NCBI GenBank assembly: GCA_002457195.1
Contig: NTJU01000002.1
Location: 1-42,760 of the forward strand
Length of the DNA: 42,760 bases
DNA from: Marine Group II euryarchaeote MED-G33
GTDB taxonomy: Archaea; Thermoplasmatota; Poseidoniia; Poseidoniales; Thalassarchaeaceae
Reading direction: 5' to 3'
The notes below the pieces were generated by a model. It did no database searches and was not told the DNA's origin. It was given only the letters and a program-made list of their open reading frames with translations. The translations under genes and the position numbers were made by a program. Within the stretch, counting starts at the first letter, position 1; every line of letters begins with the position of its first letter. Below are positions 730 to 36,118 of the stretch, piece by piece.

Positions 730-1862
730 TGTCATATCGCGGTCCAAATCACCTTTCCAATCTGGAAGAAAGGATTGAAGCCAAACGTCCAGAACTGGAA
801 GAATGGTTTGAATCTAAGAGACTCGAGTTGGATATGCCTCTATACGGTTCTGTAGATATTCGGGATGCACATTGGAAGGTTGCTGTCGTGGATGCCAATC
901 AGTATCCAGCAGGATTCAACAATTTACATGACGGGGATATTGGTGCACATTTGCGAGAATCCATTGGTGATCTGCGCCATATTCACATCTGGCCAGAAAG
1001 CCACAACCGGAATCCAGCCTACACTGAAAATATCACGTCACTGCAAACTATTTTGGAAAATGAAGGATATGCGGTTACCAAAGGGGTCCTCGAGATCAAA
1101 GAAGGGATTCCAGTTTCTATACAAGGGGCAGTGCCAGATCTCATTCTACTCAACAACGATCTAACAGAGGGCCCACTTCCAGAATTGGGTGTTCAAGTCT
1201 CTCCTCCTCCTCAAATGGGTTGGTATCAACGCCGGAAATCATCGCATTTCAGAGCGGTACAACCTTATCTGAATGAAGTCGCTGAAATATTGGAAATTGA
1301 CCCTTGGTTGTTATCCACACATTGGATTGTATCCGAAGACAAATGTCTCGACAAAGAAACATGCCGTACATTGTTGGCGGCAGAGGTTGATGATTTCATC
1401 ACTTATCTTCAAGAGAAGTATGATGAATATGGAATTGAAGGCAAACCCACATTATTTGTCAAGAATGATGCAGGGACCTATGGTCTGGGAATCCTAGAGA
1501 TCACATCTGGTGAAGAATTACTCAGTTTATCAAATAGGAAAATGAATCGTTTGACATATGGGAAAGGCGGTACGGATGCTGAGGATTTCCTAATCCAAGA
1601 AGGAGTTCCTAGTGCCCTCACTTGGGATTCAATGGTGATTGAACCGGTGGCCTATTGTGCCAATGGTAGAGTCGGAGGCTGGTTCTACAGAGCCAATGCC
1701 AAAAAGGGTGAGATGGCGAATTTAAACAGCCCCTCATCGGTATTTCTCTCGCCGGGAGAAATTCAGGATTATGCCATTGAGTCAAGACGAAATCACTGGC
1801 ACATGTTGGTGGCGGAAATTGCGATGCTTGGAATGGCTGCTGAGATTGCTTCAATCCGTTGA
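726..1862 (+). CDS. gshA: Glutamate-cysteine ligase, GshA family (proteobacterial/'ferroox' type)
   Basis: Motifs YGSVDIRDAHWKVAVVDANQYPAGFNNL and LFVKNDAGTYGLGI resemble the GshA (PF08886/TIGR02049) family; ATGA-type overlap with upstream gene. Confidence 0.75.
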   Translation: MMSYRGPNHLSNLEERIEAKRPELEEWFESKRLELDMPLYGSVDIRDAHWKVAVVDANQYPAGFNNLHDGDIGAHLRESIGDLRHIHIWPESHNRNPAYTENITSLQTILENEGYAVTKGVLEIKEGIPVSIQGAVPDLILLNNDLTEGPLPELGVQVSPPPQMGWYQRRKSSHFRAVQPYLNEVAEILEIDPWLLSTHWIVSEDKCLDKETCRTLLAAEVDDFITYLQEKYDEYGIEGKPTLFVKNDAGTYGLGILEITSGEELLSLSNRKMNRLTYGKGGTDAEDFLIQEGVPSALTWDSMVIEPVAYCANGRVGGWFYRANAKKGEMANLNSPSSVFLSPGEIQDYAIESRRNHWHMLVAEIAMLGMAAEIASIR

Positions 1863-2141
1863 ATCGACATCTGCTAAATCCGGCGGAGCATCCATTCCTG
1901 TAATTTCGTAATTTGATGGGAATAGAGCAACCAATATACCTGCAATTCCAGTGGCCAAGGCCCACCAGAACATTTTGTAGACAATCGCCATTTCCAATGC
2001 GATTACCATCAGTAACAAACCACCTATATTGGAAATCCAAACCAGTCGCTTGAAGGTGGCCAGGCCAACACCCTTGGTCGTACCCGAAATGGATTCAGGC
2101 CCGAACTCTGCTCCGAAGCGCACTGGATCATCATCGCCCAT
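1851..2141 (-). CDS. Small membrane protein (about 2 TM), unknown function
   Basis: 96-aa ORF with two hydrophobic segments, at the end of the respiratory operon. Confidence 0.6.
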   Translation of the reverse strand: MGDDDPVRFGAEFGPESISGTTKGVGLATFKRLVWISNIGGLLLMVIALEMAIVYKMFWWALATGIAGILVALFPSNYEITGMDAPPDLADVDSTD

Positions 2142-2175: not shown

Positions 2176-2508
2176 TCAACGGTCAATCATGATGATGGCA
2201 TCAGTTGGACAAGCCAATACACACAATCTGCATCCTGTACAGGGATCCCTCAATACCTTGGCCTTACGGTTGACATCAATATTCAGAATAGGACTTGCCA
2301 ATGGTGTATCATAAAGTTCGATTGCATCGTCATCACAGACGATGGTACATTGATCACATCCAATGCACAAGTCTTCCTTGACAAATGCGATTGTACCGGG
2401 TCCTCCCTTGACTTTCTCGCGCGCCTCTGTACGCATTGCATTCAGTGCGTATCGGATTCTTGCAGCTTCGCCTAAGCGGCGAGCCTCCAACTCCTTTCGC
2501 GATGTCAT
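2176..2508 (-). CDS. Dicluster 4Fe-4S ferredoxin-like protein
   Basis: CIGCDQCTIVC and CTGCRLCVLACP; likely start at MTSRKELEARR, internal to the 117-aa ORF (ORF start 2529). Confidence 0.8.
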   Translation of the reverse strand: MTSRKELEARRLGEAARIRYALNAMRTEAREKVKGGPGTIAFVKEDLCIGCDQCTIVCDDDAIELYDTPLASPILNIDVNRKAKVLRDPCTGCRLCVLACPTDAIIMIDR

Positions 2509-2544
2509 GATTGGCCGGGTGCGGCACATCTTCTCAAGACTTCC

Positions 2545-2802
2545 CTATGCAAAGAAGCTCAACCATAGCGGATGAATGGACAAAAGTACAGCCACACAAA
2601 AACCACATATTGTTCCCTTTGCCATATTCGGTCGGTCATATCCTAGCGCGATCAGGATTAGGAAAAACCCAATGATGAAATCGCAGACCATCCCAATCCA
2701 AGCTGCTTTCCAAGATAGCAGAATGGCGACGGTTGCCGTAGCCACTGGTCCAATCATGAATCCCGAGATCCAATCTCGGTCGATGGATACCAATTTCCTC
2801 AC
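2545..2802 (-). CDS. Small membrane protein, unknown function
   Basis: 85-aa hydrophobic ORF overlapping by 4 nt with the upstream cyt b/Hdr fusion gene. Confidence 0.65.
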   Translation of the reverse strand: MRKLVSIDRDWISGFMIGPVATATVAILLSWKAAWIGMVCDFIIGFFLILIALGYDRPNMAKGTICGFCVAVLLSIHPLWLSFFA

Positions 2803-5627
2803 GCCTGCTTCTTCGCCTCAACTTGTCTTGCGAGGAAAGACACAACATCTAGGATTTCGAAATCATGCTTTGGATCACCTTCGAATTTGAGACATTCAAA
2901 GTGAGATACGCATTTTGGACACGATGTGAGCATGATGTCTGCACCCGTTGCACGGACTTCATCGAATCTCTGCACACGTAGTGCGCGACTGTCCTCGTTA
3001 CAGGACATCATGCTGGACACTCCACAACAGAGTGCATCTTCACCATGGTGTTCCATCTCGACGAGTTCAACTCCATCTACGGCGGTAACCAGATCACGTG
3101 GGCCGTCGTAAATTTCCATCTGTCGACCCAATCTGCAGGGGTCGTGGTAAGTCACCGTAACATCTTCTTCAGCCTTGAGATTCATATCGAATCCATTCTC
3201 GGTCAAAAATTCAGTCGTGTGCATGACCTTGATGCCTTCGAGTTCGTAATCCTTGGCAAAAGTACGGAAGCATTCAGCACAGCTGGAAACCAATGTATCA
3301 ATTCCACTGGCTTGAATCTTCTTTTGATTGTAGGCCTTCAGCTTCTCAAAGACTTCATCCATACCTTGCCACTTCTGGTCGTGGCCACAACACTTGAGGA
3401 AGTCACGACCGAGGTAGGATACTTCCTTGTCCATTTCTTCGAATAGGGTGAATGCAGAGGTAGTTGCATCTCCAAGATTCATTTCACCTTCGTTGATGTG
3501 GCTGAAAATCATCTCTTGATCTAGATAGTCAACACAGCCAGGGTAATATCCAATACTGGAATCAATTGGATAATCTTCGACTGAGATGAAATCTGAATCG
3601 CGCTCCTCTTCTGCCTCAGCGGCTAGAACCGCTTGCAAGACTGTGTGTGGGATATTCGATGCTGGGGGGCCTCCGACGACGAGAGCCCTACGCATATCGA
3701 CATAGGAATCGTAGTCGACCAATTGCGGGCATGCATTCGAACAAGCAGAACACGTCAAACACGAGTACATTGGGACTCCATCATCCTCATTGTTCCAGGT
3801 ATTGTAAATAATATTCAATTTATCACCTGCATTGAATAAGCGAACCGGACATGCATCGTCGCAGAGATCGCATCCATAGCACTTGTTCATTTCATATTCA
3901 TAGCCGCGTGCCATACTACGCATCAACATGAAGACGATTGCACCTGTTCCAAAACAAGGAATGAATAGCGAGTAAATCAATTTGGCATCTAAACTCTTAG
4001 GATTCTTGTGATATGTTGGATTTTCAACTGTATAAGCAGAGAGGCTTGCAATATCCAATCCGATATCAGCCATAGTGAGATTCGCAGGGTCGTTGCGGTT
4101 CAGGGCTTGCCCATTGTCCCCCAGAAGAAGGGGTTGGTATGCTGCAACATTGACGCCGGCGAAGACTGTGTATGATGAGTTGACACCAGTCCACAAGGTC
4201 GAGAATTCGATTTTATATTCACCTGGGGCAAGTTTCAGAACGCTATTTTCACAAGCACCTTCGCTAATTTTCGAATCGGATGCGTCGCGAACAATCAGAC
4301 TACCGGCGCCTTCTCCGATGCCCCATTCACTCGACCGTTCACCACAAACCAAATCGACATATACCGTTTTGAGTCCAAAGTCTTCTATTGTCATATTCCA
4401 ATTTCCTTCAATCGAGATGTCACCAGTCTCATCATTTCCGGATTCAGCCCATTCTTGTGAGATTCCATTTCTACCAATACTGGTATCTTTGTGATGGTTC
4501 ACTCCACTAAAGTCGAGAATATTCCTTTGAACTGGTTGATAAATCCCCCAATTTAGGAAATGACTTGCACTGACTAGACAGAAATCAGAACGACTGTAGG
4601 CATCTTCACCTTCGAATTTCTCACTATTCCAGACTTCGCTGGCAATACTCTGCTCGTAGGTTAGACAATCGGCTTCAATCGATTCCCAGTGATGGCCTTC
4701 ATTGATGTCGACAAGTGTGTCAACTGGTTGTCCACGAAGTTCTTCCAAAGCTGATACTTCATCCATGGCACCAAGACCTCCTTGGTCCCAGAATCCGTCG
4801 TCATATACTGGCCATGTTACTGTGCAGAGTAGAACTGTAACGATGAGTGTACCCATTGAAACCTGTTTACCCAACTGTGGTGTGGTTCTGGCTCCAATTG
4901 ATTTGACCAAGAACCATCGAATCCCCATGTATAGGGCGATCCATATGAAAATCCCAGTCAAAATCCATGGAATGGCATTGAAAATTTCAGCGAGCCAAGG
5001 CTCTCGTGTTCCACAATTGAGCCCTGCGTGAGAATTGAGCTGACAGAAATCAGTCCTATTTTTCCCATACAGTTCAAGGAAGATATTGATTGAAAATACG
5101 CTGATGAACCAAATGTGAGCGAGATAAATCGTGCCCCACGTTGCATACCATGGATCTTCAACACCACGCTTGGCCCTCCCACCCAAGAATGGTGGTAGGA
5201 CCAAAATCATCACAGGAAGGCCTGTGATTGCAGCTCCCCACCAAGCAGCGTTCCACGAGATGACTGGCTGTCCAAAGAAATCTCCAATCGGCCCTGCTGG
5301 AATATCGAATTGAGGTAAGTATTCACCCCAGCGTAGATATCCGTAACTGAAGAGAACATACCAATCTGGGAATACGAATCCGGCTTGTGCGTATGGGTCT
5401 GCTGCACCGTGTAGGGGGGGTGGGATCAACCACGAATAGAAAGCAAGAACAGCGACCATCGCTGCTAGAATAATTCCATCCCTGAGCACTTCATGTGGCC
5501 AGAATGCATGTCCTACAAACACACGTCTACGTTCTTCGTCGGCTGATTGCAAACTATCCTTTTCACGTACATACGTGTCGGCAATCTTGCCTAGATTTTC
5601 GATGAGTCCCATGTCTAATCCCTCCAA
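2799..5627 (-). CDS. Fusion: cytochrome b C-terminal domain (subunit IV-like) + external domain + TM + HdrD/GlpC-like 4Fe-4S and two CCG domains
   Basis: N-terminal TMs with PDWY Qo-type motif; C-terminal CYGCDLCDDACP and CLTCSACSNACP clusters; two CCG modules (KCCGHDQ...SSCAEC and LCCGVSS...TSCPKC). Confidence 0.88.
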   Translation of the reverse strand: MEGLDMGLIENLGKIADTYVREKDSLQSADEERRRVFVGHAFWPHEVLRDGIILAAMVAVLAFYSWLIPPPLHGAADPYAQAGFVFPDWYVLFSYGYLRWGEYLPQFDIPAGPIGDFFGQPVISWNAAWWGAAITGLPVMILVLPPFLGGRAKRGVEDPWYATWGTIYLAHIWFISVFSINIFLELYGKNRTDFCQLNSHAGLNCGTREPWLAEIFNAIPWILTGIFIWIALYMGIRWFLVKSIGARTTPQLGKQVSMGTLIVTVLLCTVTWPVYDDGFWDQGGLGAMDEVSALEELRGQPVDTLVDINEGHHWESIEADCLTYEQSIASEVWNSEKFEGEDAYSRSDFCLVSASHFLNWGIYQPVQRNILDFSGVNHHKDTSIGRNGISQEWAESGNDETGDISIEGNWNMTIEDFGLKTVYVDLVCGERSSEWGIGEGAGSLIVRDASDSKISEGACENSVLKLAPGEYKIEFSTLWTGVNSSYTVFAGVNVAAYQPLLLGDNGQALNRNDPANLTMADIGLDIASLSAYTVENPTYHKNPKSLDAKLIYSLFIPCFGTGAIVFMLMRSMARGYEYEMNKCYGCDLCDDACPVRLFNAGDKLNIIYNTWNNEDDGVPMYSCLTCSACSNACPQLVDYDSYVDMRRALVVGGPPASNIPHTVLQAVLAAEAEEERDSDFISVEDYPIDSSIGYYPGCVDYLDQEMIFSHINEGEMNLGDATTSAFTLFEEMDKEVSYLGRDFLKCCGHDQKWQGMDEVFEKLKAYNQKKIQASGIDTLVSSCAECFRTFAKDYELEGIKVMHTTEFLTENGFDMNLKAEEDVTVTYHDPCRLGRQMEIYDGPRDLVTAVDGVELVEMEHHGEDALCCGVSSMMSCNEDSRALRVQRFDEVRATGADIMLTSCPKCVSHFECLKFEGDPKHDFEILDVVSFLARQVEAKKQA

Positions 5628-6494
5628 TCAATGTGGCTCGGCAATACCCTGTACCCAGACAATAAACAAGTGGACAATAATCAGTCCAGTGACAATGACA
5701 GGGAGGATGAATACGTGTAGGAAATACATCCTGGTTACAGTTTGGTATGAGAGACTGGTTCCACCAAACATCGCGCTGGCGACCCAAGGGCCAATCAAAG
5801 GTGTACTATTGGCCATGTTGATTCCAATCGTAGCTGCACCAAATGCAAGACTATCCCATGGAAGTAGATAACCAGAGTATCCGAAGAAGATCGTGAAGAA
5901 CATCAGCCCCACACCAATCAACCAGTTTAACTCACGTGGATTTCGGTATGCTCCCGTAAAGTAAACACGACACATGTGTAAGAATACAGCGGCCACCATG
6001 AAGTGCGTCGTCCAGTGGTGAATCGAACGGATGATGTAACCGAAAGGCAACTGCGTCATGATGAATTCCATGCTGGAGTAAGCGGGTGTAGGGTCGCCCT
6101 GCCCACCAGGGACGTAGTAAATTCCTAGAATCGTACCTGTGATGACGAGAATGATGAATGCCAAGAAGGAAATTCCTCCAAGACAATACAATGGGTACCA
6201 ATACCAAATGATACGCAATTTGTATTTCTCAGCATGTGTGAGTGGCATCTGCCGATGCATGCTGTGGTATGCATCTCTAGACATTGCCCAATAATCCTGG
6301 ACTCTAAAACGGGTGTCGAGCCAAGAAAACACCCAAAGGAATGTTTTCTCAACCAGTCCCAATTTCCCGGTGGATTCAACCGCACGCAGGATTTCCTTAC
6401 GGGGCATCTCCTCGTTTTCCTTTCTCAATGTGAATGCGACAGTCACTGTAATTACAGCAATGAAAAGTCCCAACAGCCAAACTTGTAACATCAT
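5628..6494 (-). CDS. Cytochrome b/b6 N-terminal domain
   Basis: IRSIHHWTTHFMVAAVFLHMCRVYFTGAYRNPRELNW, GYSGYLLPWD and FLHVFILPVIVTGLIIVHL; paired His residues for two b hemes. Confidence 0.93.
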   Translation of the reverse strand: MMLQVWLLGLFIAVITVTVAFTLRKENEEMPRKEILRAVESTGKLGLVEKTFLWVFSWLDTRFRVQDYWAMSRDAYHSMHRQMPLTHAEKYKLRIIWYWYPLYCLGGISFLAFIILVITGTILGIYYVPGGQGDPTPAYSSMEFIMTQLPFGYIIRSIHHWTTHFMVAAVFLHMCRVYFTGAYRNPRELNWLIGVGLMFFTIFFGYSGYLLPWDSLAFGAATIGINMANSTPLIGPWVASAMFGGTSLSYQTVTRMYFLHVFILPVIVTGLIIVHLFIVWVQGIAEPH

Positions 6495-6501
6495 TTACAC
6501 C

Positions 6502-7401
6502 TCAATCGCAGAATGTGTACCATTCCTGGTATGTGTCTAACCCTTCAATCACATCGTCGGTGACGACAAATGGAATGAGTGGGAGTCCCACGGGGGCTGG
6601 TCCACCCGTTAAGCGGACGCCAAAGTAGTCGAATGTTGATCCATCATTTCGATTTCGATTGGAATTCTTTTCGAGCATCGTAGGGTCATATCGTGATGAA
6701 TGGCAAATGCAGAATAATTTGTTCCCGCCTGCGTCGACGCCACCCGGTAGCCATGTGTCTGCTGTGAAATCATTGGCAACCAATTGCCAACCGGGGATAC
6801 AGCACAAATGGGGGCATCGACTGAACAACAGGAGGATATTGTCGTGTGGCTGTAATGCTAAATCTGGGGTGCCATCTTCAAGGGTTACGTCAAAAATCTC
6901 ACGACCGTGTCCGACGAAAGATCCTGCGGAATCTCTGCCTTCCCCATACTGGATTCGAGGTACACCCTCTGCAGGTGGTTTTGATTCATTTTCTTCATGA
7001 GGGATGTAAACGATGTTGACGGGAAGTCCACTCCAAACCCCTTGTGCACCAGCCATACCAGTATCTGAATTCGCAGCTTCCGCAACCAAATCAGATTTCT
7101 TCATGATTTGCTCGTGCATGGCGCCATACCAAACCGTATCTTCCTGTCCCTTCGGGACCCAGTATCTGACACCGGTATCCTCTGCACCTGAAGCGGCTTG
7201 TCCCATTAGGAAAGATGCAAAGCCGACAGCACCCAAACTCGCCATGGCAATGACACCACCGGCAGCGTTGAATGTGTATTTCATGAATCGGCGGCGATCA
7301 ATAGTTGTCGCCACATTGTTGGACGTTTCAGCGCCAGTGATGCCTGGCGAGGGTCGGAGTCTGAATTGTCTGGCCATGGTTACACCTTGTATTCTACCCA
7401 A
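6502..7401 (-). CDS. Rieske [2Fe-2S] iron-sulfur protein
   Basis: CPHLCC and CICHSS cluster motifs; RRRFMKYTFNAAGGVIAMASLGAVGFA Tat-like N-terminal signal/anchor; directly upstream of cytochrome b. Confidence 0.9.
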   Translation of the reverse strand: MGRIQGVTMARQFRLRPSPGITGAETSNNVATTIDRRRFMKYTFNAAGGVIAMASLGAVGFASFLMGQAASGAEDTGVRYWVPKGQEDTVWYGAMHEQIMKKSDLVAEAANSDTGMAGAQGVWSGLPVNIVYIPHEENESKPPAEGVPRIQYGEGRDSAGSFVGHGREIFDVTLEDGTPDLALQPHDNILLLFSRCPHLCCIPGWQLVANDFTADTWLPGGVDAGGNKLFCICHSSRYDPTMLEKNSNRNRNDGSTFDYFGVRLTGGPAPVGLPLIPFVVTDDVIEGLDTYQEWYTFCD

Positions 7402-7829
7402 CTTTCGGAATCCTTTGGTCCGATGAACTTGTTTCTACGATGCTTGACAATGACAGTGTCTGGCATGACCCACTTCAGATACACGATACCCATGATGATC
7501 AATGTTGTCAGCATCATTGCCATGAAGAATGAGAGCAATTGTTGATCCCAGTGGTTGAATAGCCCGTAAGCCAAACCACCTGACCAGTAAATTGTCCAGA
7601 ACAATCCCCATACAAAAACGAATGTAACCAACCAAGAAGATGCACTTGGGGATATGCTGGAACGGACAATTGTTCCGGGCTCAGGCATGTTGAATACACC
7701 ATGGTCAATTGCGGTAACGTACTCTTCTTCAGTCAGGTTAACTCCATCCAAAGCCGCTCTTGCATCCTCAAGGCTGACGTCGCCTGATTTGACCTGCCTT
7801 AGCAGACGCATCACAACATCATCACTCAA
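7380..7829 (-). CDS. Small membrane protein of the Rieske/cyt b operon, unknown function
   Basis: 149-aa ORF with two TM segments and an N-terminal SHOCT-like helical stretch; overlaps neighbouring genes in the operon. Confidence 0.65.
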   Translation of the reverse strand: MSDDVVMRLLRQVKSGDVSLEDARAALDGVNLTEEEYVTAIDHGVFNMPEPGTIVRSSISPSASSWLVTFVFVWGLFWTIYWSGGLAYGLFNHWDQQLLSFFMAMMLTTLIIMGIVYLKWVMPDTVIVKHRRNKFIGPKDSESWVEYKV

Positions 7830-8653
7830 AGTTGATCACCTCTTCGTAGATGCTTCATACGAAGCCGCACCAAATTGGACCTGCCTTCGTAATGACGGCT
7901 GAATCCATATCGTAAGAAGAATCCACAGAATACAATCACTGCGACCACTGCTCCAAATCCGAGAAGACCTAGCCAATGGGCGCGGAATGGCGCACCCATG
8001 TGGTGTAGATCCACATGACCGTGGTCATCGGCAGGTGGGGCGACATCGCCATTCCCTGCAAAAATAGTTCGGGTGCTACCAGAATCCTCTCCTTCACCCA
8101 GTGAGAATGAAAGTCGGTTCCAAGCATCTCCTGTTGGTGCACCGTCGCCATTGACACTGTTTCCAGACAACCAGAATGTAACATCACCAGCACCAGAGGC
8201 AGGTGCAGTCCATACGAAATCCCATGCCCGGTCGGTCGGGTTGCTACCTGCTTCAGTATGGGTCAGTGAGTTTTCGTCATCTCCATTTTGGACCATGTCC
8301 TCGTAGCCGGCTCCAGCTGAAAGTGCTCCATCAGAGACTAGCATCGAGAAGCCAGCAGATGCAGTTCCTCCGATTTCAGGGCCTCCAATGATTTCAATTT
8401 TCATCGTGTAGGCTTGGCCTGCTGTGAAGTGGAATGGAACATCTACAATCATGACTGTCACTGAGTCGTCAGGGGTGATTGCATTCCCTGAATGGCAAGT
8501 ACAACCGGTCTTGGCGACATCAGTCCCACCTTCGGCTTCATTGCCAGTGATGCCCGATGGACGGGCTTGTGTTGAGCCAGCAATCAACAAGACGACGAGT
8601 AGTCCAATAAGGACATGTTTCGTTCGACTGGTTGATACTGACATAGTAGCCAC
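7826..8653 (-). CDS. Secreted/anchored protein with CxCH motif and choice-of-anchor-V/reelin-like domain
   Basis: Signal peptide, KTGCTCHSGNA, SAGFSMLVSDGAL and WDFVWTAPASGAGDVTFWLSGNSVNGDG; C-terminal TM. Confidence 0.75.
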   Translation of the reverse strand: MATMSVSTSRTKHVLIGLLVVLLIAGSTQARPSGITGNEAEGGTDVAKTGCTCHSGNAITPDDSVTVMIVDVPFHFTAGQAYTMKIEIIGGPEIGGTASAGFSMLVSDGALSAGAGYEDMVQNGDDENSLTHTEAGSNPTDRAWDFVWTAPASGAGDVTFWLSGNSVNGDGAPTGDAWNRLSFSLGEGEDSGSTRTIFAGNGDVAPPADDHGHVDLHHMGAPFRAHWLGLLGFGAVVAVIVFCGFFLRYGFSRHYEGRSNLVRLRMKHLRRGDQL

Positions 8654-24477: not shown

Positions 24478-25647
24478 TCAAGTAAGGACTTCATCAAGAC
24501 GATCTTGCTCGACAGCTTGACGAATCTCCATCGCGATACGTCGGCCACTACTCATTGGTTTGCGCCATGTTGCATTTCCATATGGGTGTCCAACATTAAC
24601 GTGAACATTTGTACCGCCTCCAACACGTGGTGCTACGTCATAGATGTAGTAATCCATGTCCTTGTCGATGCAAGTTTGCAAACAGAAAGGTCCAATGATT
24701 CCAGGGTCGTAATGCTCTTTGCTAGCAGTGATAAATTTCTCACCCAATTCAAACGCCTTCTCGAGTAAACTCTCTCGAATCGTAGCCGTATTGTGTCCAA
24801 CGACTGTCATTTCTGGAATTTGCTGATGGGCTGGCATGGTCATTTGCTGTGGTGCGGGTAGGCGAACATGCCCATCAAGTGATGATTCAAATCGCCAATC
24901 AACGCCCAATAACTCCAGTTTTGGCATATCCTCAGCTAGAGGACTATAGAAGAAGTTTAGATTGAATACAGGGCCAATCACATACCGCTCAATTCGTGCA
25001 CCATCTAAACTGGCTTGATCAATTACTCCTTCCTTGAGAAGTGTTGCTGCCTTCTCCGTATATTCTTCAAATGAAGAACAAGTGAAGAACCCTCTTTCGA
25101 GTTTCTTTTGTGCATGGTGTAATTTGACAATTACCAAGCAATCAATTTCCTCTGGTGTTTGAATGGCTTCAGGGTATGGTAAACCAGCCTGTTCCAAAAT
25201 CCAGTAGTAATCCTGTTCTTCAGTACGCTCTTCCATCCGCAACATGTTTCGGCTACCAAACAATGGGACACGGAAATTGTTTTCGACATCCTCGATAGAA
25301 CTGTAAGATGTGAATGATCGATTTGGGATATACACCACATTCCGCTCTCGCATCTGTTGCTGAAAATCTGGCGCCATCACATCGTTGAATGAATCGAGAA
25401 CAATGGCTTTGTCTACCATGCCTCTAACGACTCGACCTGAAGAATTACGCTTGGTTTTGAAATACTCGGAATAGGTTTTTTCCCGACCTTTTTGGCAATA
25501 GGCAACCGTCGGAAAACCCTCCTCGATTGCACCGTCGCAGAGGTCTAGTGCGCTATGACTGCCCGTCATGCCAATACGTAACTTGAGGCGGTCATATTCC
25601 TCAAGTATGGACTGAATGTCTTGAGAACCAATCATTGGATTAGCCAC
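24478..25647 (-). CDS. purP: Formate-dependent FAICAR synthetase (PurP) family ATP-grasp protein
   Basis: GMTGSHSALDLCDGAIEEGFPTVAYCQKGREKTYSEYFK; IGPFCLQTCIDKDMDYYIYDVAPRVGGGTNVHVNVGHPYG. Confidence 0.85.
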   Translation of the reverse strand: MANPMIGSQDIQSILEEYDRLKLRIGMTGSHSALDLCDGAIEEGFPTVAYCQKGREKTYSEYFKTKRNSSGRVVRGMVDKAIVLDSFNDVMAPDFQQQMRERNVVYIPNRSFTSYSSIEDVENNFRVPLFGSRNMLRMEERTEEQDYYWILEQAGLPYPEAIQTPEEIDCLVIVKLHHAQKKLERGFFTCSSFEEYTEKAATLLKEGVIDQASLDGARIERYVIGPVFNLNFFYSPLAEDMPKLELLGVDWRFESSLDGHVRLPAPQQMTMPAHQQIPEMTVVGHNTATIRESLLEKAFELGEKFITASKEHYDPGIIGPFCLQTCIDKDMDYYIYDVAPRVGGGTNVHVNVGHPYGNATWRKPMSSGRRIAMEIRQAVEQDRLDEVLT

Positions 25648-26530
25648 CGCGTTGTAGTGCCATCAATTCGTCTGTGGACAAAGTTTCACCAGACATGAGT
25701 TTTGACATGAGATCTTGGACTTCGACCCGAGCATTTACTCTGCCAGAATCGATACCCTGTTCTCTGTTATTTCTGGCACGGAGAATATCATGGATTGAGT
25801 GTAGACACCTTAGGCTGACGATGTAGGTTTGGTGCGCACGATCGGCTTCACGTTTCGCTCGTCGAACCTCGGCCTGGCTGGCATCGGCTTTTTCGCGCAA
25901 CTTATCCACTTCTTCGCTCAACTTCAACATGAGTTCATGAGCTTCTTGAGCAACTTCCTGAGTTTCAACAACAGATTGGTGGCAGGATTCCTGTGATTCC
26001 ATGGCAATTCGGAGTTTTTCGCGAGCATCTTTGAGTTCAACATTCGAATCCTCCTTTTCACTTAAATCACGTAATTTTCTCTTCATCGCTTTCATTCGAT
26101 GCATGGCCTTTTTCTCGTTGTTACCAGTATGCTTGCCAAGCTCGAATTCTCTTTCCAAAGTTTCGATTTGACGACGAAGTGATGCTGGAGTGTCTACCTT
26201 GTCCCGGCGCCCTCGGCGGTCATTTTGGCCACCTCTTCGCTCAGTTTCTGGGGATAATTCTCGCAATAGTTCCTTTGCGTCCTTTACTTCTTGATTTTTT
26301 TCTGCGCGTTGGGATTTAGCATCACGGACAGCAGCATTTGCTTCGTCACGGATTGCTTTTTGTTTTTGAACCTCAGTGATGAGATTTCGCACTCTGGTGT
26401 TGAATTCGTTTCGGGTTCCAATATGCTCCCTCATTTTACCGTTTAAACCGTCACGTACATCACGATTTTTAGTTGCTTTACCATCAACGGACCCTCGCAA
26501 ATCCCCAAGCACAGACAAGATATCATCCAT
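25640..26530 (-). CDS. Coiled-coil protein (COG1340-like)
   Basis: Long charged alpha-helical sequence; C-terminal SGETLSTDELMALQRGG. Confidence 0.75.
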   Translation of the reverse strand: MDDILSVLGDLRGSVDGKATKNRDVRDGLNGKMREHIGTRNEFNTRVRNLITEVQKQKAIRDEANAAVRDAKSQRAEKNQEVKDAKELLRELSPETERRGGQNDRRGRRDKVDTPASLRRQIETLEREFELGKHTGNNEKKAMHRMKAMKRKLRDLSEKEDSNVELKDAREKLRIAMESQESCHQSVVETQEVAQEAHELMLKLSEEVDKLREKADASQAEVRRAKREADRAHQTYIVSLRCLHSIHDILRARNNREQGIDSGRVNARVEVQDLMSKLMSGETLSTDELMALQRGG

Positions 26531-26701
26531 TTCAGATCACCACTTGACCTGACGTAGTCAGACCTTAGACATCAGTGCCAAATGGCGATGCCATATAATC
26601 GCTGCTCTCTACACATCGCCCCCTATGGGGGCGTATACATTTTTCACAATCGACTTGAGATAACGATTAAACCCCGCCCGTTCAACCCGCAATTGATTCC
26701 C

Positions 26702-27385
26702 ATGTTCATAGATGGAATGCCCGGAATGGAACGAGTACTTGCAACAGATGTGAACCCGCCCTACTTGACACTGGTAACGGGGCCACCGGGTTCGATGAAA
26801 TCCTCGTTCTGCCTGTCTCTTGTTTCGAACCATTTGCGACAGTCAGGTGGTTTTGGATTGTATTGCACAGTTGAAGAAACTACAAGCAGTTTGCTTCGAG
26901 CCTCACATTCACTTGGGCTCGCGCTGCCACCGAATCTCCAAATCACAGATTTCACAGAATTGAGAAATGAGAACGAAGATATGGATTACCTCAAATTCAC
27001 GCAGAAAATGATAGAGCACTTCAAACGAGAGAGGGGCGATGCGTTTTCAGTGTTTATTCTAGATTCACTAGGAGCAATTTACAGTTTGACCAGTGTTGAT
27101 GAAGAAATGAGAAAGAGAATGTTTCGCTTCTTTGAATTCTGCCGCAGCCAAAATCTGCACACATTTGTGATCACCGAAAGACAAGCGGGTGAAGCTGCCG
27201 AATTGGAGGGCAACGAAGGTTTCCTCGCCGATTGTATCCTGAATCTTGGATTGGATCGCCGGAATGGACAAATGGTCCGGACTCTCCAGATCGAGAAGAT
27301 GAGGCACGTCAGGCATTCGATGGAAAAGCAAGCGATGGAAGTCACGGGCTCTGGAGTTTCACTGCTAGGTCCCCTGTTTGACTAG
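26702..27385 (+). CDS. KaiC/RadA-like RecA-superfamily ATPase (single domain)
   Basis: IDGMPGMERVL, TGPPGSMKSSF Walker A, VFILDSLGAIYSL Walker B; likely start 26702 rather than ORF start 26582. Confidence 0.8.
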   Translation: MFIDGMPGMERVLATDVNPPYLTLVTGPPGSMKSSFCLSLVSNHLRQSGGFGLYCTVEETTSSLLRASHSLGLALPPNLQITDFTELRNENEDMDYLKFTQKMIEHFKRERGDAFSVFILDSLGAIYSLTSVDEEMRKRMFRFFEFCRSQNLHTFVITERQAGEAAELEGNEGFLADCILNLGLDRRNGQMVRTLQIEKMRHVRHSMEKQAMEVTGSGVSLLGPLFD

Positions 27386-27732
27386 GCCAAGTCAACAATT
27401 CGACCCGCCGCATTTTCAAGCACACTCCGTAGTGCGCCGACATTGGCCCCCACTCCTGATTGGATTAGCAACAATCGATTTTCATCTACCCGATGTGCTA
27501 ACATGAGTGCTTCACTCGTGCGGAGTAGCATTCTTACGGGTACATCTTCGAGTAGTGAATCCAATCCGAACCACATTGACACCGCCGCTTCAACAACTTT
27601 CGATTTTGGTGTAAAATCGATGGGGAGTGCATCAGGCCCTACGAGTGCAACCCACTCTACCTCGTCTTGGCCGAGTAAATCTTGCATGAGGCGTGTCCGC
27701 ATGAACCAATGCAATACTAGACAGGGCATCAT
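27382..27732 (-). CDS. Roadblock/LC7-like domain protein
   Basis: 116 aa; VEWVALVGPDALPIDF...LLLIQSGVGANVGALRSVLENAAGRI resembles the Roadblock fold pattern. Confidence 0.55.
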   Translation of the reverse strand: MMPCLVLHWFMRTRLMQDLLGQDEVEWVALVGPDALPIDFTPKSKVVEAAVSMWFGLDSLLEDVPVRMLLRTSEALMLAHRVDENRLLLIQSGVGANVGALRSVLENAAGRIVDLA

Positions 27733-28208
27733 TGTGACGATGCATTTGCATGCAGAGGGCCGAGCATTAACCAGCCATCATATCCGCGATAGAATCCTCT
27801 GAGACATCCTTTCGGCCTGAGCCCACGACGATGGTACATTTGTACGGCTCCAAAATTATCTTGTCGAACTTCAAGTTGAACTGTGCGAATCCCTGATGAT
27901 TGAGCTGCTCGAGCAAAATGTGACCAACCTTTCGAACCGTAGCCGTTGCCCTGCAAATTTTCAGCGACTGAAAATGCGAGTACTCTGGCATGTTTTTCTG
28001 ACATTTTCATTGCCCATAATAGTCCGTGATCAGTTAGGCCATCAGAGAGAATCCATAGTCCGAATTTTTCGTCTAATGGTAACTTCCTGAGGCGTGGTTT
28101 TTGGTAGGATTCACCTGTGGTTTGAATAATCAATTGGCGGATATTTTCCAGTCTAGATTCACTCCAATTTTTGAGGGACGATGTCGGGATCCACCTGAGC
28201 CCGTCCAT
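27729..28208 (-). CDS. GNAT family N-acetyltransferase
   Basis: LAFSVAENLQGNGYGSKGWSHFARAAQSSGIRTVQLEVRQDNFGAVQMYHRRGLRPKG. Confidence 0.75.
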   Translation of the reverse strand: MDGLRWIPTSSLKNWSESRLENIRQLIIQTTGESYQKPRLRKLPLDEKFGLWILSDGLTDHGLLWAMKMSEKHARVLAFSVAENLQGNGYGSKGWSHFARAAQSSGIRTVQLEVRQDNFGAVQMYHRRGLRPKGCLRGFYRGYDGWLMLGPLHANASSQ

Positions 28209-28212
28209 GTAA

Positions 28213-29229
28213 TCACCTGCGACGTTTTTCCTTTTCTTCGGGACTCAATGTCCGTCTTTTCCCGCGTGCGGCACCCGATTGTCTCGGTCGACGTTTTTTG
28301 GGTTCGGATTTTGGTTCGGATTTTGGTTTGGTTTTTTCTTTTTCTTTCAGTGAATCGAGTAGACTTCCACTGCCCAATAATGCGCTAAAATCTTCCATGG
28401 ACAAGGACTTCCCACTGTTCGCCCTGGCCTTAACTTCATCCAGTCTAGGCTGAATTTTTCGTCTACCGCGGTTACCTTTGTTGCCCTTTTTTCGAACGCG
28501 GGTGTAGGCCTCCAAGCGTCCGATTTCACGTTTGATACCTTTCAGTTCGGATCGGTGTGTATTGATTTTTTCAAGCATCTTAGCAATTCGCTCATTCAGC
28601 TTTCGAATTTCCTTCGGGTTTGCTTTTTGATTGGGCAATTCTTCACGCGCTTCTTCCGCGACTGATTTTTTTTCGTCATTCAACTTATCCAGTTGTTGCA
28701 GTTTGTCCTTTTGATTCCGCAACAATTCGATGTATTTCTGGTGCAATTGGTTCCCAATTAATTTCTGCGAATGCATCGCTTTCAGTTCAAAGAAGAACGA
28801 GAATAATTTCGTCTCATGTTTGCGGTTGGGCATTTTAGACAAATCATGGGGGATGGTTGCAAGCCGACGATGAGTTTCTATCAATCGCTGCTCAATTATT
28901 TCGAGTGGAGGAGGTACATTTTCATTGACTGTATCTCGTTCGGATTTGACTTTATTCGCCTCATCCCGAATCTTGCGGAATTCTGTAAGCAGGCCATTCC
29001 TCTCTTTACTGAATCCACGATTTGATTCCTGAATGTCGCGTAATGATTGAACCAAGGTGATTTCTGCATCTCGCTCCTGTTTCACCCTGCGTTGCTGCTC
29101 CCCCGTTGCAGTGGCCGTTGCTTTTAGGGATTCAAGTCGCTCACTGATGTCTGAATCAGATAGACTTTCCAAATCATCAAACAAACCTTTTTTTGGTTCT
29201 GAGTGGTGCTTTTTCTTGTCACCACTCAT
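28213..29229 (-). CDS. Coiled-coil protein (COG1340-like) with basic RQSGAARGKR tail
   Basis: Charged heptad-like helices; SGKSLSMEDFSALLGSG; PKSEPKSEPKK and RQSGAARGKRRTLSP at C-terminus. Confidence 0.75.
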   Translation of the reverse strand: MSGDKKKHHSEPKKGLFDDLESLSDSDISERLESLKATATATGEQQRRVKQERDAEITLVQSLRDIQESNRGFSKERNGLLTEFRKIRDEANKVKSERDTVNENVPPPLEIIEQRLIETHRRLATIPHDLSKMPNRKHETKLFSFFFELKAMHSQKLIGNQLHQKYIELLRNQKDKLQQLDKLNDEKKSVAEEAREELPNQKANPKEIRKLNERIAKMLEKINTHRSELKGIKREIGRLEAYTRVRKKGNKGNRGRRKIQPRLDEVKARANSGKSLSMEDFSALLGSGSLLDSLKEKEKTKPKSEPKSEPKKRRPRQSGAARGKRRTLSPEEKEKRRR

Positions 29230-30071
29230 TCTTCTTCACCACCGCTTGGTTTTATGGAAATTGGGAGCTCAGCATTTCGACGAAGCACGGTGGATTTCCC
29301 ACCAGATTCGACATCTTTTGCCGCTGTGAGTAATTTATCAAAACCGTCTTTGCTTGTATTTTCCCAGAAGGAGATCGCGGACCCTGATTGCTTGATCAGT
29401 GCACGGGACCGCTCGAGTTGACGAATCGAGTTCCGTAGTTCGGCACGTTTCTCAATAAATTCAGCATGAATCGGCTCGTTTTTCTCGACATGTGTTAGCA
29501 TTTCCTGATGCAGTTTGTCGGCTTGAGTGAAGAGTTTCTGCATTTTTTTACTCGAATCAACGTATTCAGCCATCTCGGGGTTGCTCTTTTTCCTTTGATC
29601 TAACCACTCCTCATTCTTTTTCAGCAAGGCCTTCCTTTCTGAAATCAATCGACGTTCATCGGTTAGTGACAAGGCTTCCTTCTCAATTTTGTCTTCGATC
29701 GCTTGAAGGGATTCTTCGAGTTTGGCCTTCGCCCATTTCGGATCGAGATTTTTGAGTCCGCCGGACTCTTCCAATTTGGACCTGATTGTTCGTGTTTGCT
29801 TGAGTAATCCGCGTGCTTCCTTCTGTGCATCATTCCGCCGTTTTTTCAATTCAGCAATACGATTTGAGTGCATGTCTCTTGCCAATCGCAATTTTTCGAC
29901 TTCTGGAGACAGGGTATCAGCATCTTCAGACATTGCCTTCTCGATTCCAGGCAATGCTTCAGCCAGAAACTTTCGACGCTCCAGAATCTTAGAAGCGAGT
30001 TCCTCCGGTCCGAGGGCGAGAAGGTCTGAAACATTCATGCAGAACGAGTTCCGGAACCACGGGTTCCGCAT
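29226..30071 (-). CDS. Coiled-coil protein (COG1340-like)
   Basis: Charged helical ORF, ATGA-type overlap with the next coiled-coil gene. Confidence 0.7.
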   Translation of the reverse strand: MRNPWFRNSFCMNVSDLLALGPEELASKILERRKFLAEALPGIEKAMSEDADTLSPEVEKLRLARDMHSNRIAELKKRRNDAQKEARGLLKQTRTIRSKLEESGGLKNLDPKWAKAKLEESLQAIEDKIEKEALSLTDERRLISERKALLKKNEEWLDQRKKSNPEMAEYVDSSKKMQKLFTQADKLHQEMLTHVEKNEPIHAEFIEKRAELRNSIRQLERSRALIKQSGSAISFWENTSKDGFDKLLTAAKDVESGGKSTVLRRNAELPISIKPSGGEEE

Positions 30072-35044: not shown

Positions 35045-35098
35045 TACGCTCACCTCCCTCATCGTTCTATTCAAATGGGGAAAGGGGGTCGGCAGTTC

Positions 35099-36118
35099 AT
35101 GACGGAATCCGAAGAGGTCGACAGCAGTGATGCTGACCTCCGTGATCAGTTGAAGTCGATGGAGGCCAAACTCCGCCGTCTTCGCGACATCCGACAGCAG
35201 CACAATGATGCTGGTAAAAGGAATGCAGACTCGCGCAATTCGATTCAAAAAGAGTACAAAAAACTCCGAGAAGAAATTGATTTGAAGTTGGCCGAAAATA
35301 AGGAAATTCGCAATAAGGCAAAGGCACATCAGGCGAGACGCGATGCAATTCAACAACAAATCCGCGAACTGATTGGTCAAGCAAAGAATTCTCGTGGAGA
35401 AAAAGGTAAGAAATCCCCCGTTCTTGAATTGAGTGAGATAAATTCTCAGATTGATAAACTTGAGAATATGCTTGAGACTGATGGTTCGATTAAACTCGAG
35501 AAGGAAAATAACATCCTTAAATTAATCAAAAAGCATTCAAATCGAAAGAAGGAATTGGAACCCTTGGTCGAAGAGGCCTTGCGCATCAAGATCGATCTAG
35601 ACAATATCGAAGGCAGTATACAAGAACTCAAGGTCGAGGCTGATTCAGAGCATGCGGCCATGGTTGGTTTCCATGAAGAAGCGGATAAGTTGTGGGTGAC
35701 AATCAAACCGCTCTTTGAAGAACGTGATTTCAAGAAAGCCGAAGGTGATCGGTTGCACGAAGCATTCCTTGAATGTCGTAAACAAGCCGACGAAATTCAC
35801 ACCCAAGTTGTCGCAATGCTCGATCAGGTAAATCAGATTCGTGACAAACTCAAGCAAGAACGCCTTGAGGCCCAGTCTTGGATTGATGACCACAACGAAT
35901 CAGTTCGAACGGCCTTGAAGACACCTGACCAGGACGAAAAATTGGCGGGTTCATTGACACAAGCCCTACTCGCAGGGGCTTCCATCAGTCTGGGTGGAAG
36001 TGAAACAGGTTCCAATGCAAATACCCGCTCCGACGGCCGTTCTTCTCGGAAAGCCAATATGCGCCGGAGTGGTGCTGCAAGAGGCAACAGGGGTCGTTCA
36101 AAACCCCGTGAGGACTAA
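35099..36118 (+). CDS. Coiled-coil protein (COG1340-like) with RRSGAARGNRGRSK tail
   Basis: Charged helical protein with C-terminal tail resembling that of the 28213-29229 product. Confidence 0.75.
   Translation: MTESEEVDSSDADLRDQLKSMEAKLRRLRDIRQQHNDAGKRNADSRNSIQKEYKKLREEIDLKLAENKEIRNKAKAHQARRDAIQQQIRELIGQAKNSRGEKGKKSPVLELSEINSQIDKLENMLETDGSIKLEKENNILKLIKKHSNRKKELEPLVEEALRIKIDLDNIEGSIQELKVEADSEHAAMVGFHEEADKLWVTIKPLFEERDFKKAEGDRLHEAFLECRKQADEIHTQVVAMLDQVNQIRDKLKQERLEAQSWIDDHNESVRTALKTPDQDEKLAGSLTQALLAGASISLGGSETGSNANTRSDGRSSRKANMRRSGAARGNRGRSKPRED

Follow-up and report, generated by a model that had tools for sequence, protein, structure and literature searches.

A cytochrome b half fused to an HdrC/HdrB-type iron-sulfur module in complex III of Marine Group II archaea: a candidate cytoplasmic port for ferredoxin

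Marine Group II archaea have only one complex III, and in it a cytochrome b C-terminal half is covalently fused to an iron-sulfur module of the HdrC/HdrB type. We propose, with a probability of roughly 0.45, that this module provides a port at the n-side of the complex, through which a candidate ferredoxin would feed the quinone site via HdrBC-type clusters. Here, we describe the anatomy, conservation, synteny, single-copy status and HdrD-like ancestry of the fusion, starting from contig NTJU01000002.1 of MED-G33 (positions 1 to 42,760, hereafter the window). Marine Group II (MGII) corresponds to the order Poseidoniales, in which MGIIb is the family Thalassarchaeaceae and MGIIa the family Poseidoniaceae. 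The features discussed are listed below by window position, with (-) marking the minus strand:

7826 to 8653 (-), choice-of-anchor V protein with an extracellular domain and a C-terminal TM helix (NF041895, 7.5e-29), first gene of the cluster
7380 to 7829 (-), 149-aa membrane protein with weak similarity to DUF7318 (PF24002, 1.8e-4, below cut-off)
6502 to 7401 (-), Rieske protein with CPHLCC and CICHSS motifs and a twin-arginine-like N-terminus (TIGR01416, 4.2e-10, below the equivalog cut-off)
5628 to 6494 (-), cytochrome b N-terminal half (PF00033, 1.5e-41)
2799 to 5612 (-), fusion protein, 937 aa from the ATG (942 aa from the TTG at 5627)
4893 to 5510 (-), in the fusion: cytochrome b C-terminal half with PDWY and one of two extra TM helices (residues ~40-245, TTG numbering; PDB profile search)
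3996 to 4799 (-), in the fusion: extracytoplasmic insert, mostly beta-sandwich, found only in Poseidoniales (AF2, alignment)
3909 to 3995 (-), in the fusion: sixth TM helix, returning the chain to the cytoplasm (hydropathy, AF2 helix 540-568, loop charges)
3678 to 3908 (-), in the fusion: HdrC-like pair of [4Fe-4S] motifs (Cys583/586/589/593 and Cys623/626/629/633)
3228 to 3560 (-), in the fusion: CCG domain 1 (PF02754; Cys698, 746, 747, 783 and 786)
2838 to 3170 (-), in the fusion: CCG domain 2 (PF02754; Cys831, 867, 868, 903 and 906)
2545 to 2802 (-), 85-aa small membrane protein, variable between lineages, whose membership of the complex is uncertain
2176 to 2529 (-), RnfB-like 2[4Fe-4S] ferredoxin (Fer4_21, 6.6e-13), putative partner of the port
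1851 to 2141 (-), P96, a 96-aa membrane protein whose gene co-occurs with that of the ferredoxin (synteny)

On the minus strand, positions 2799-5627 form one uninterrupted frame of 942 aa from a TTG at 5627, and the plus-strand reading of the same positions contains many stops. The likelier start is the ATG at 5612, which has a GGAGG sequence upstream and yields a protein of 937 aa ending at the stop at 2799. A sequence-only reading of this DNA had described a single frame combining a PDWY motif, an insert, a TM helix, two [4Fe-4S] motifs and two complete CCG motifs, and our profile and motif searches recovered every one of these parts. Some of its details had to be revised, as the minus strand carries the frame, the TM helices number six instead of four, the insert spans ~270 rather than ~290 aa, and the ATG replaces the more upstream start. 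At 58 loci the fusion frame continues in frame and without any gap from the stop codon of the cytochrome b gene (window 5628-5630), which is TGA at 54 of them. Separate initiation at the ATG behind GGAGG is a simpler reading of this junction than read-through. A single-chain model of cytochrome b plus fusion, in which TGA was read as Trp for modelling only, had a mean pLDDT of 60 and a pTM of 0.38, too low to be informative. Elsewhere in the window, several long coiled-coil-like proteins of similar make-up are encoded close together (25640-30071 and 35075-36118).

Pfam recognized the CCG domains (PF02754, 8.9e-23, in two stretches) and a Fer4_8 match (9.5e-7) in the fusion protein of the window, leaving its N-terminal part unrecognized. 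A profile built from 12 sequences of this part matched QcrB (3.6e-8) and b6f subunit IV (4.1e-7) in the PDB, and PF00032 scored above cut-off in the relatives from two families of another Thermoplasmatota class (f22 and f25). Three of the six TM helices belong to the cytochrome b half, two are extra and one follows the insert. Hydropathy, AF2 helices and loop charges agree on a topology with the N-terminus inside, the PDWY loop and the insert outside, and the iron-sulfur module inside, the first [4Fe-4S] Cys being placed on the n-side ~10-15 residues past the sixth helix (AF2, loop charges). The insert (residues ~277-544) is acidic, with 42 D+E versus 11.5 K+R per protein, and the conserved Cys residues 195/205, 321/350 and 428/459 of the fusion all fall in outside parts, where they may pair as disulfides; both features fit a location of the insert outside the cell. 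AF2 modeled the insert as a block of eight strands with pLDDT ~80-90, and a fold search with it returned only weak jelly-roll or GOLD-like matches. The AF2 models, moderate to low in confidence, yielded no heme-cluster distance, and a search of a viral fold library gave nothing useful.

The neighboring genes encode the remaining core of a Rieske/cytochrome b complex. The cytochrome b N-terminal half has two bis-His heme pairs with b6-type spacing, and its best PDB match is cytochrome b6 (1.3e-41). Its Cys104, kept in 97% of MGII rows, aligns opposite the heme-ci Cys35 of b6, so that this cytochrome b, with split halves and a candidate heme-ci Cys, can be assigned to the b6f type on its sequence features. 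In the Rieske protein, Cys196, His198, Cys201, Cys231, Cys233 and His234 are 100% conserved. Together with the PDWY motif of the Qo site, these ligands and the profile matches support the earlier proposal that the fusion is part of a Rieske/cytochrome b complex. Among 60 MGII genomes, cytochrome b (PF00033) was single copy in 56, present twice in one (G030, 97% complete with 3% contamination) and missing from three. As this cytochrome b adjoins the fusion and is single copy, the fusion complex is the only complex III of Marine Group II. Searches with Pfam and NCBIfam found no cytochrome c1 or f family among the eight proteins of the cluster, and no NAD(P), flavin or FAD domain in the operon.

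The cluster is strongly conserved. The genes for the anchor V protein, the 149-aa protein, Rieske and cytochrome b lie upstream of the fusion in all 71 Thalassarchaeaceae loci with enough flank, and the ferredoxin and P96 genes lie downstream in 71 of 72 MGIIb loci. In MGIIa, the ferredoxin-P96 pair adjoins the fusion, in either orientation, at 10/11 loci, and a ferredoxin gene also adjoins the complex III locus in f22 and in the sister order of Poseidoniales (f3), which we take to be MGIII since the class holds two orders in GTDB. Among the conserved genes of the cluster, only that of this 2[4Fe-4S] protein encodes a soluble redox protein; the best NCBIfam match of the ferredoxin is rnfB, at 44.2 bits against a cut-off of 68.7 and hence below it. 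Close relatives carry the gene for the 85-aa protein on the same strand; many other genera have it inverted in place. A GCTCHSG motif is invariant in the anchor V protein (7826-8653), with Cys51, Cys53 and His54 100% conserved, and this CxCH may be a metal or heme site.

Our survey of relatives with the same domain order covered Thermoplasmatota genomes. Matches were found in 99/99 genomes of the family and 116/116 of the order, a few fragmented genomes holding only pieces or a paralogue. We recovered 112 near-full-length open frames, of which 87 are distinct and come from both Poseidoniales families; the intact fusion occurs in many independent assemblies, including some with single-cell-like names (AG-, AH-) and a one-contig MGIIa genome. 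The 87 distinct intact sequences rule out an assembly error as the source of the fusion. The full fusion, without the insert, is also present in f22 and f25. Thus, the two halves are not separate genes in all relatives, the finding that would have spoken against the sequence-only reading. The only split version is that of MGIII, in which one gene encodes the cytochrome b C-half plus 2[4Fe-4S] and the next gene of the same cluster the CCG pair, so that the break separates the CCG part from the [4Fe-4S] pair, not cytochrome b from the iron-sulfur module. The insert was not found in the MGIII, f22 or f25 versions and is therefore a Poseidoniales feature. In f25, cytochrome b itself is fused to four Big_5 Ig-like domains, and its f22 counterpart carries a similar-looking N-terminal extension (L136 788-3610 and L135 10089-11975).

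Within the fusion, conservation is highest in the iron-sulfur module. Mean pairwise identity was 94% for the 2[4Fe-4S] part and 85% for the CCG part, compared with 78% for the cytochrome C-half, 83% for the separate N-half and 48% for the insert, the least conserved region. All relatives have the eight ferredoxin-type Cys, which are 100% conserved in the 87 MGII rows. Of the ten CCG Cys, the five of CCG1 are 98-100% and the five of CCG2 100% conserved in the same rows; those of CCG2 are also present in relatives, and both motifs are complete in f22 and f25. Each MGIII version readable in full lacks one CCG1 Cys (CSG or CAEG) and has CCG2 intact. These data leave hardly any room for the idea that the module is structural or vestigial, or the fusion an artefact: the Cys losses of MGIII could be read as decay, but 87 distinct intact sequences keep all cluster Cys in MGII, and we consider this explanation refuted by the comparative data.

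The module carries the hallmark of Hdr proteins, an HdrC-type 2[4Fe-4S] pair followed by two CX(n)CCX(n)CXXC motifs. Profile searches with it returned EtfD, HdrC (6.7e-14) and HdrB, and fold searches EtfD, LutA and HdrB (5odc_B, E 1.4e-7). No curated Hdr/Tfr equivalog cut-off was reached, the best being TfrB with 105.3 bits against 385. In the tree, the cytochrome-b-linked modules (those of Poseidoniales, the f22 and f25 fusions and the split version of the sister order) formed one clade (100/97). The nearest other rows were soluble HdrD-like proteins, with moderate support (93/88 and 91/80), several of them encoded beside HdrA/MvhD genes. Of the earlier label 'HdrD/GlpC-like', the Hdr part thus holds and the GlpC part does not; an origin from GlpC/LdhH was rejected, since the NCBIfam matches fell far short of the cut-off and HdrD-like proteins linked to HdrA are the closest relatives. 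In f25, the fusion is followed by an HdrA2-like protein with an FlpD/MvhD domain, whose score of 128.8 bits is far below the curated cut-off. We infer recruitment of the module from an HdrA-linked complex, followed by the loss of HdrA or its replacement by ferredoxin.

By both sequence and fold, the PDB entry that matches the module best is EtfD (9ojn), which, like the fusion, places membrane helices, 2[4Fe-4S] and two CCG domains on one chain. Its membrane part differs, comprising five NarI-like TM helices with b heme, whereas that of the fusion is a cytochrome b C-half. In EtfD, one CCG1 Cys is replaced by Thr and His583 is used (PMC13083937); the fusion has Cys747 and Glu785 at these positions. 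More generally, EtfD/EMO proteins carry CCG ligand substitutions (CTG/CSG, CPHC) and form a separate clade, lying beyond a 100/100 branch from the module of the fusion, which shares neither trait. It is accordingly very unlikely that the CCG domains serve, as those of EtfD/EMO do, as a docking site for ETF or some other flavoprotein dehydrogenase, even though ETF alpha is encoded in 58/60 MGII genomes. In most MGII genera, a true EMO is encoded by a gene of its own. It was missing only in genomes of g1, g7 and g17 (G000, G002, G007, G013, G024 and G111), and ETF-QO (PF21162) scored above cut-off in exactly these lineages, in 5/6 genomes; the EMO type and the FAD-type ETF-QO are thus mutually exclusive across MGII genera. 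Genera with ETF therefore have their own ETF quinone reductase, EMO or ETF-QO, and ETF does not need the fusion. This mirror pattern, the tree and the CCG ligands together disfavor ETF docking.

HdrA, the ancestral flavoprotein partner, is also gone: it was not found in 59/60 MGII genomes, which rules it out as a partner of the MGII fusion apart from the one genome with a real match (G022). In that MGIIb genome, an HdrA-like fragment, a CCG protein, ETF alpha and a second EMO-like gene lie close together (G022:C9:79573-86392). Likewise, NuoF (PF01512) was not found in 54/60 MGII genomes, which makes ferredoxin a plausible general donor. This observation contrasts with the published description of MGII complex I as a canonical NADH dehydrogenase (PMC6336850). 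A precedent for electron transfer between these partners exists in Methanosarcina acetivorans, in which ferredoxin reduces HdrB2C2 directly, without HdrA (PMC5296606).

Our preferred reading centers on the neighboring 2[4Fe-4S] ferredoxin, the probable partner of the putative port. The 937-aa protein is subunit IV of the sole MGII complex III, extended by a cytoplasmic HdrC/HdrB-type module. At the p-side, menaquinol (menaquinone being the presumed quinone type) would be oxidized via Rieske and heme bp as in any Rieske/cytochrome b complex. At the n-side, a chain made up of the CCG clusters and both HdrC-type [4Fe-4S] clusters could carry electrons between ferredoxin and heme ci/bn, the site at which quinone would be reduced. 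Flow would most likely be inward, from reduced ferredoxin to the n-side quinone site, and complex III would double as a ferredoxin:quinone oxidoreductase. Cofactor occupancy, the partner and the direction of flow are deduced here from sequence. The sequence-only reading had suggested a second, cytoplasmic electron outlet or inlet; the covalently attached HdrC/HdrB-type cluster chain partly supports this, and the topology and the candidate heme-ci Cys fit a port on the n-side. Of the directions and partners it named, indirect evidence favors input from ferredoxin.

Several observations speak for the inlet: the [4Fe-4S] and CCG parts are more conserved than the cytochrome halves, the ferredoxin-P96 pair adjoins the fusion, HdrA and NuoF are absent from most MGII genomes, and ETF has a quinone reductase of its own. 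Others count against it. A complex I lacking NuoF could already oxidize ferredoxin with proton pumping, which would make a second entry wasteful; the f25 neighbor is an HdrA/MvhD-like protein and not a ferredoxin; and gene adjacency is no proof that ferredoxin binds the complex. In addition, a plain relay would not need CCG motifs with all five Cys, yet these are strictly retained in organisms exposed to oxygen.

It is possible, if doubtful, that complex III is also a catalytic enzyme of the Hdr type, its CCG clusters trading electrons with a cytoplasmic thiol/disulfide or a low-potential carrier. If so, bifurcation or confurcation in a single complex would connect a third redox pool, in the cytoplasm, with quinone and the Rieske branch. 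A rival reading would have the CCG clusters couple a cytoplasmic dithiol/disulfide to the quinone pool via cytochrome b, comparable to HdrDE with a different cytochrome b. The HdrD-like clade, the fold match to HdrB and the retention of all five Cys per CCG in MGII, f22 and f25, where EtfD has Thr and His (PMC13083937), are in its favor. The fully readable MGIII versions, however, lack one CCG1 Cys and still keep the complex, which there does not depend on cleaving disulfides at two clusters. We know of no thiol substrate in these aerobes, HdrA is missing from 59/60 MGII genomes, and we regard this reading as unlikely.

Another rival is an outlet. Here quinol oxidation would bifurcate: Rieske and the oxidase would receive one electron, and the other would travel via heme bn/ci and the Hdr clusters to a low-potential cytoplasmic acceptor, ferredoxin or another. 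Anammox Rieske/cytochrome b complexes, in which the high-potential branch is proposed to drive an n-side reductase (PMC12954380), are a precedent, and MGII are aerobic, so that a strongly oxidizing branch exists (PMC6336850). Yet the operon lacks an NAD(P) or FAD domain, and electron transfer from menaquinol to ferredoxin runs uphill. Heterotrophs that make reduced ferredoxin from 2-oxoacids must dispose of it, not make it. An outlet thus seems improbable to us.

This complex has traits in common with several known ones and differs from each. As in b6f and other Rieske/cytochrome b complexes, cytochrome b is split into a four-helix half and a subunit IV-like half, with PDWY, Rieske ligands, bis-His pairs and the heme-ci Cys; unlike in b6f, cytochrome f and c1 are missing from the eight cluster proteins, and subunit IV bears a beta-domain plus the HdrC/HdrB module. 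The anammox complexes (Kuste4569-4574 and Kustd1480-1485; PMC12954380) likewise combine a b6f-like core with a cytoplasmic iron-sulfur redox module, but there a separate flavin subunit acts as cytoplasmic NAD(P) reductase, whereas in MGII an Hdr-type CCG module is covalently attached, a ferredoxin accompanies it, and there is no flavin or NAD domain. HdrDE and HdrABC share the HdrC 2[4Fe-4S] and the HdrB double CCG with complete Cys, and the nearest soluble relatives of the module are in HdrA operons; in contrast to HdrDE, the membrane partner in MGII is a b6-type cytochrome b and not HdrE, with no HdrA and no known CoM/CoB role.

A close published case is that of Angelarchaeales, a related order from the same phylum, for which a single sentence names the same gene ingredients (hdrD-like and rnfB-like genes near complex III) and proposes the same entry of ferredoxin (PMC9038741). 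An hdrD-like gene near complex III and the ferredoxin-entry idea are thus already published; the passage concerned describes neighboring genes, without a fusion, a cluster analysis, an origin or a distribution in MGII. The covalent fusion, undescribed in the open-licence papers of our non-exhaustive literature search, its universality in Marine Group II and its origin appear to be new.

Complex III of MGII had previously been described only as lacking a canonical bc1 (PMC6336850). These archaea abound in surface oceans worldwide, and our analysis shows what replaces the canonical bc1 throughout both families. The old question of whether ferredoxin enters a b6f-type complex at the n-side by heme ci becomes testable in a system in which the putative port is covalently attached, and a module of anaerobic bifurcating enzymes has here been carried into an aerobic respiratory chain.
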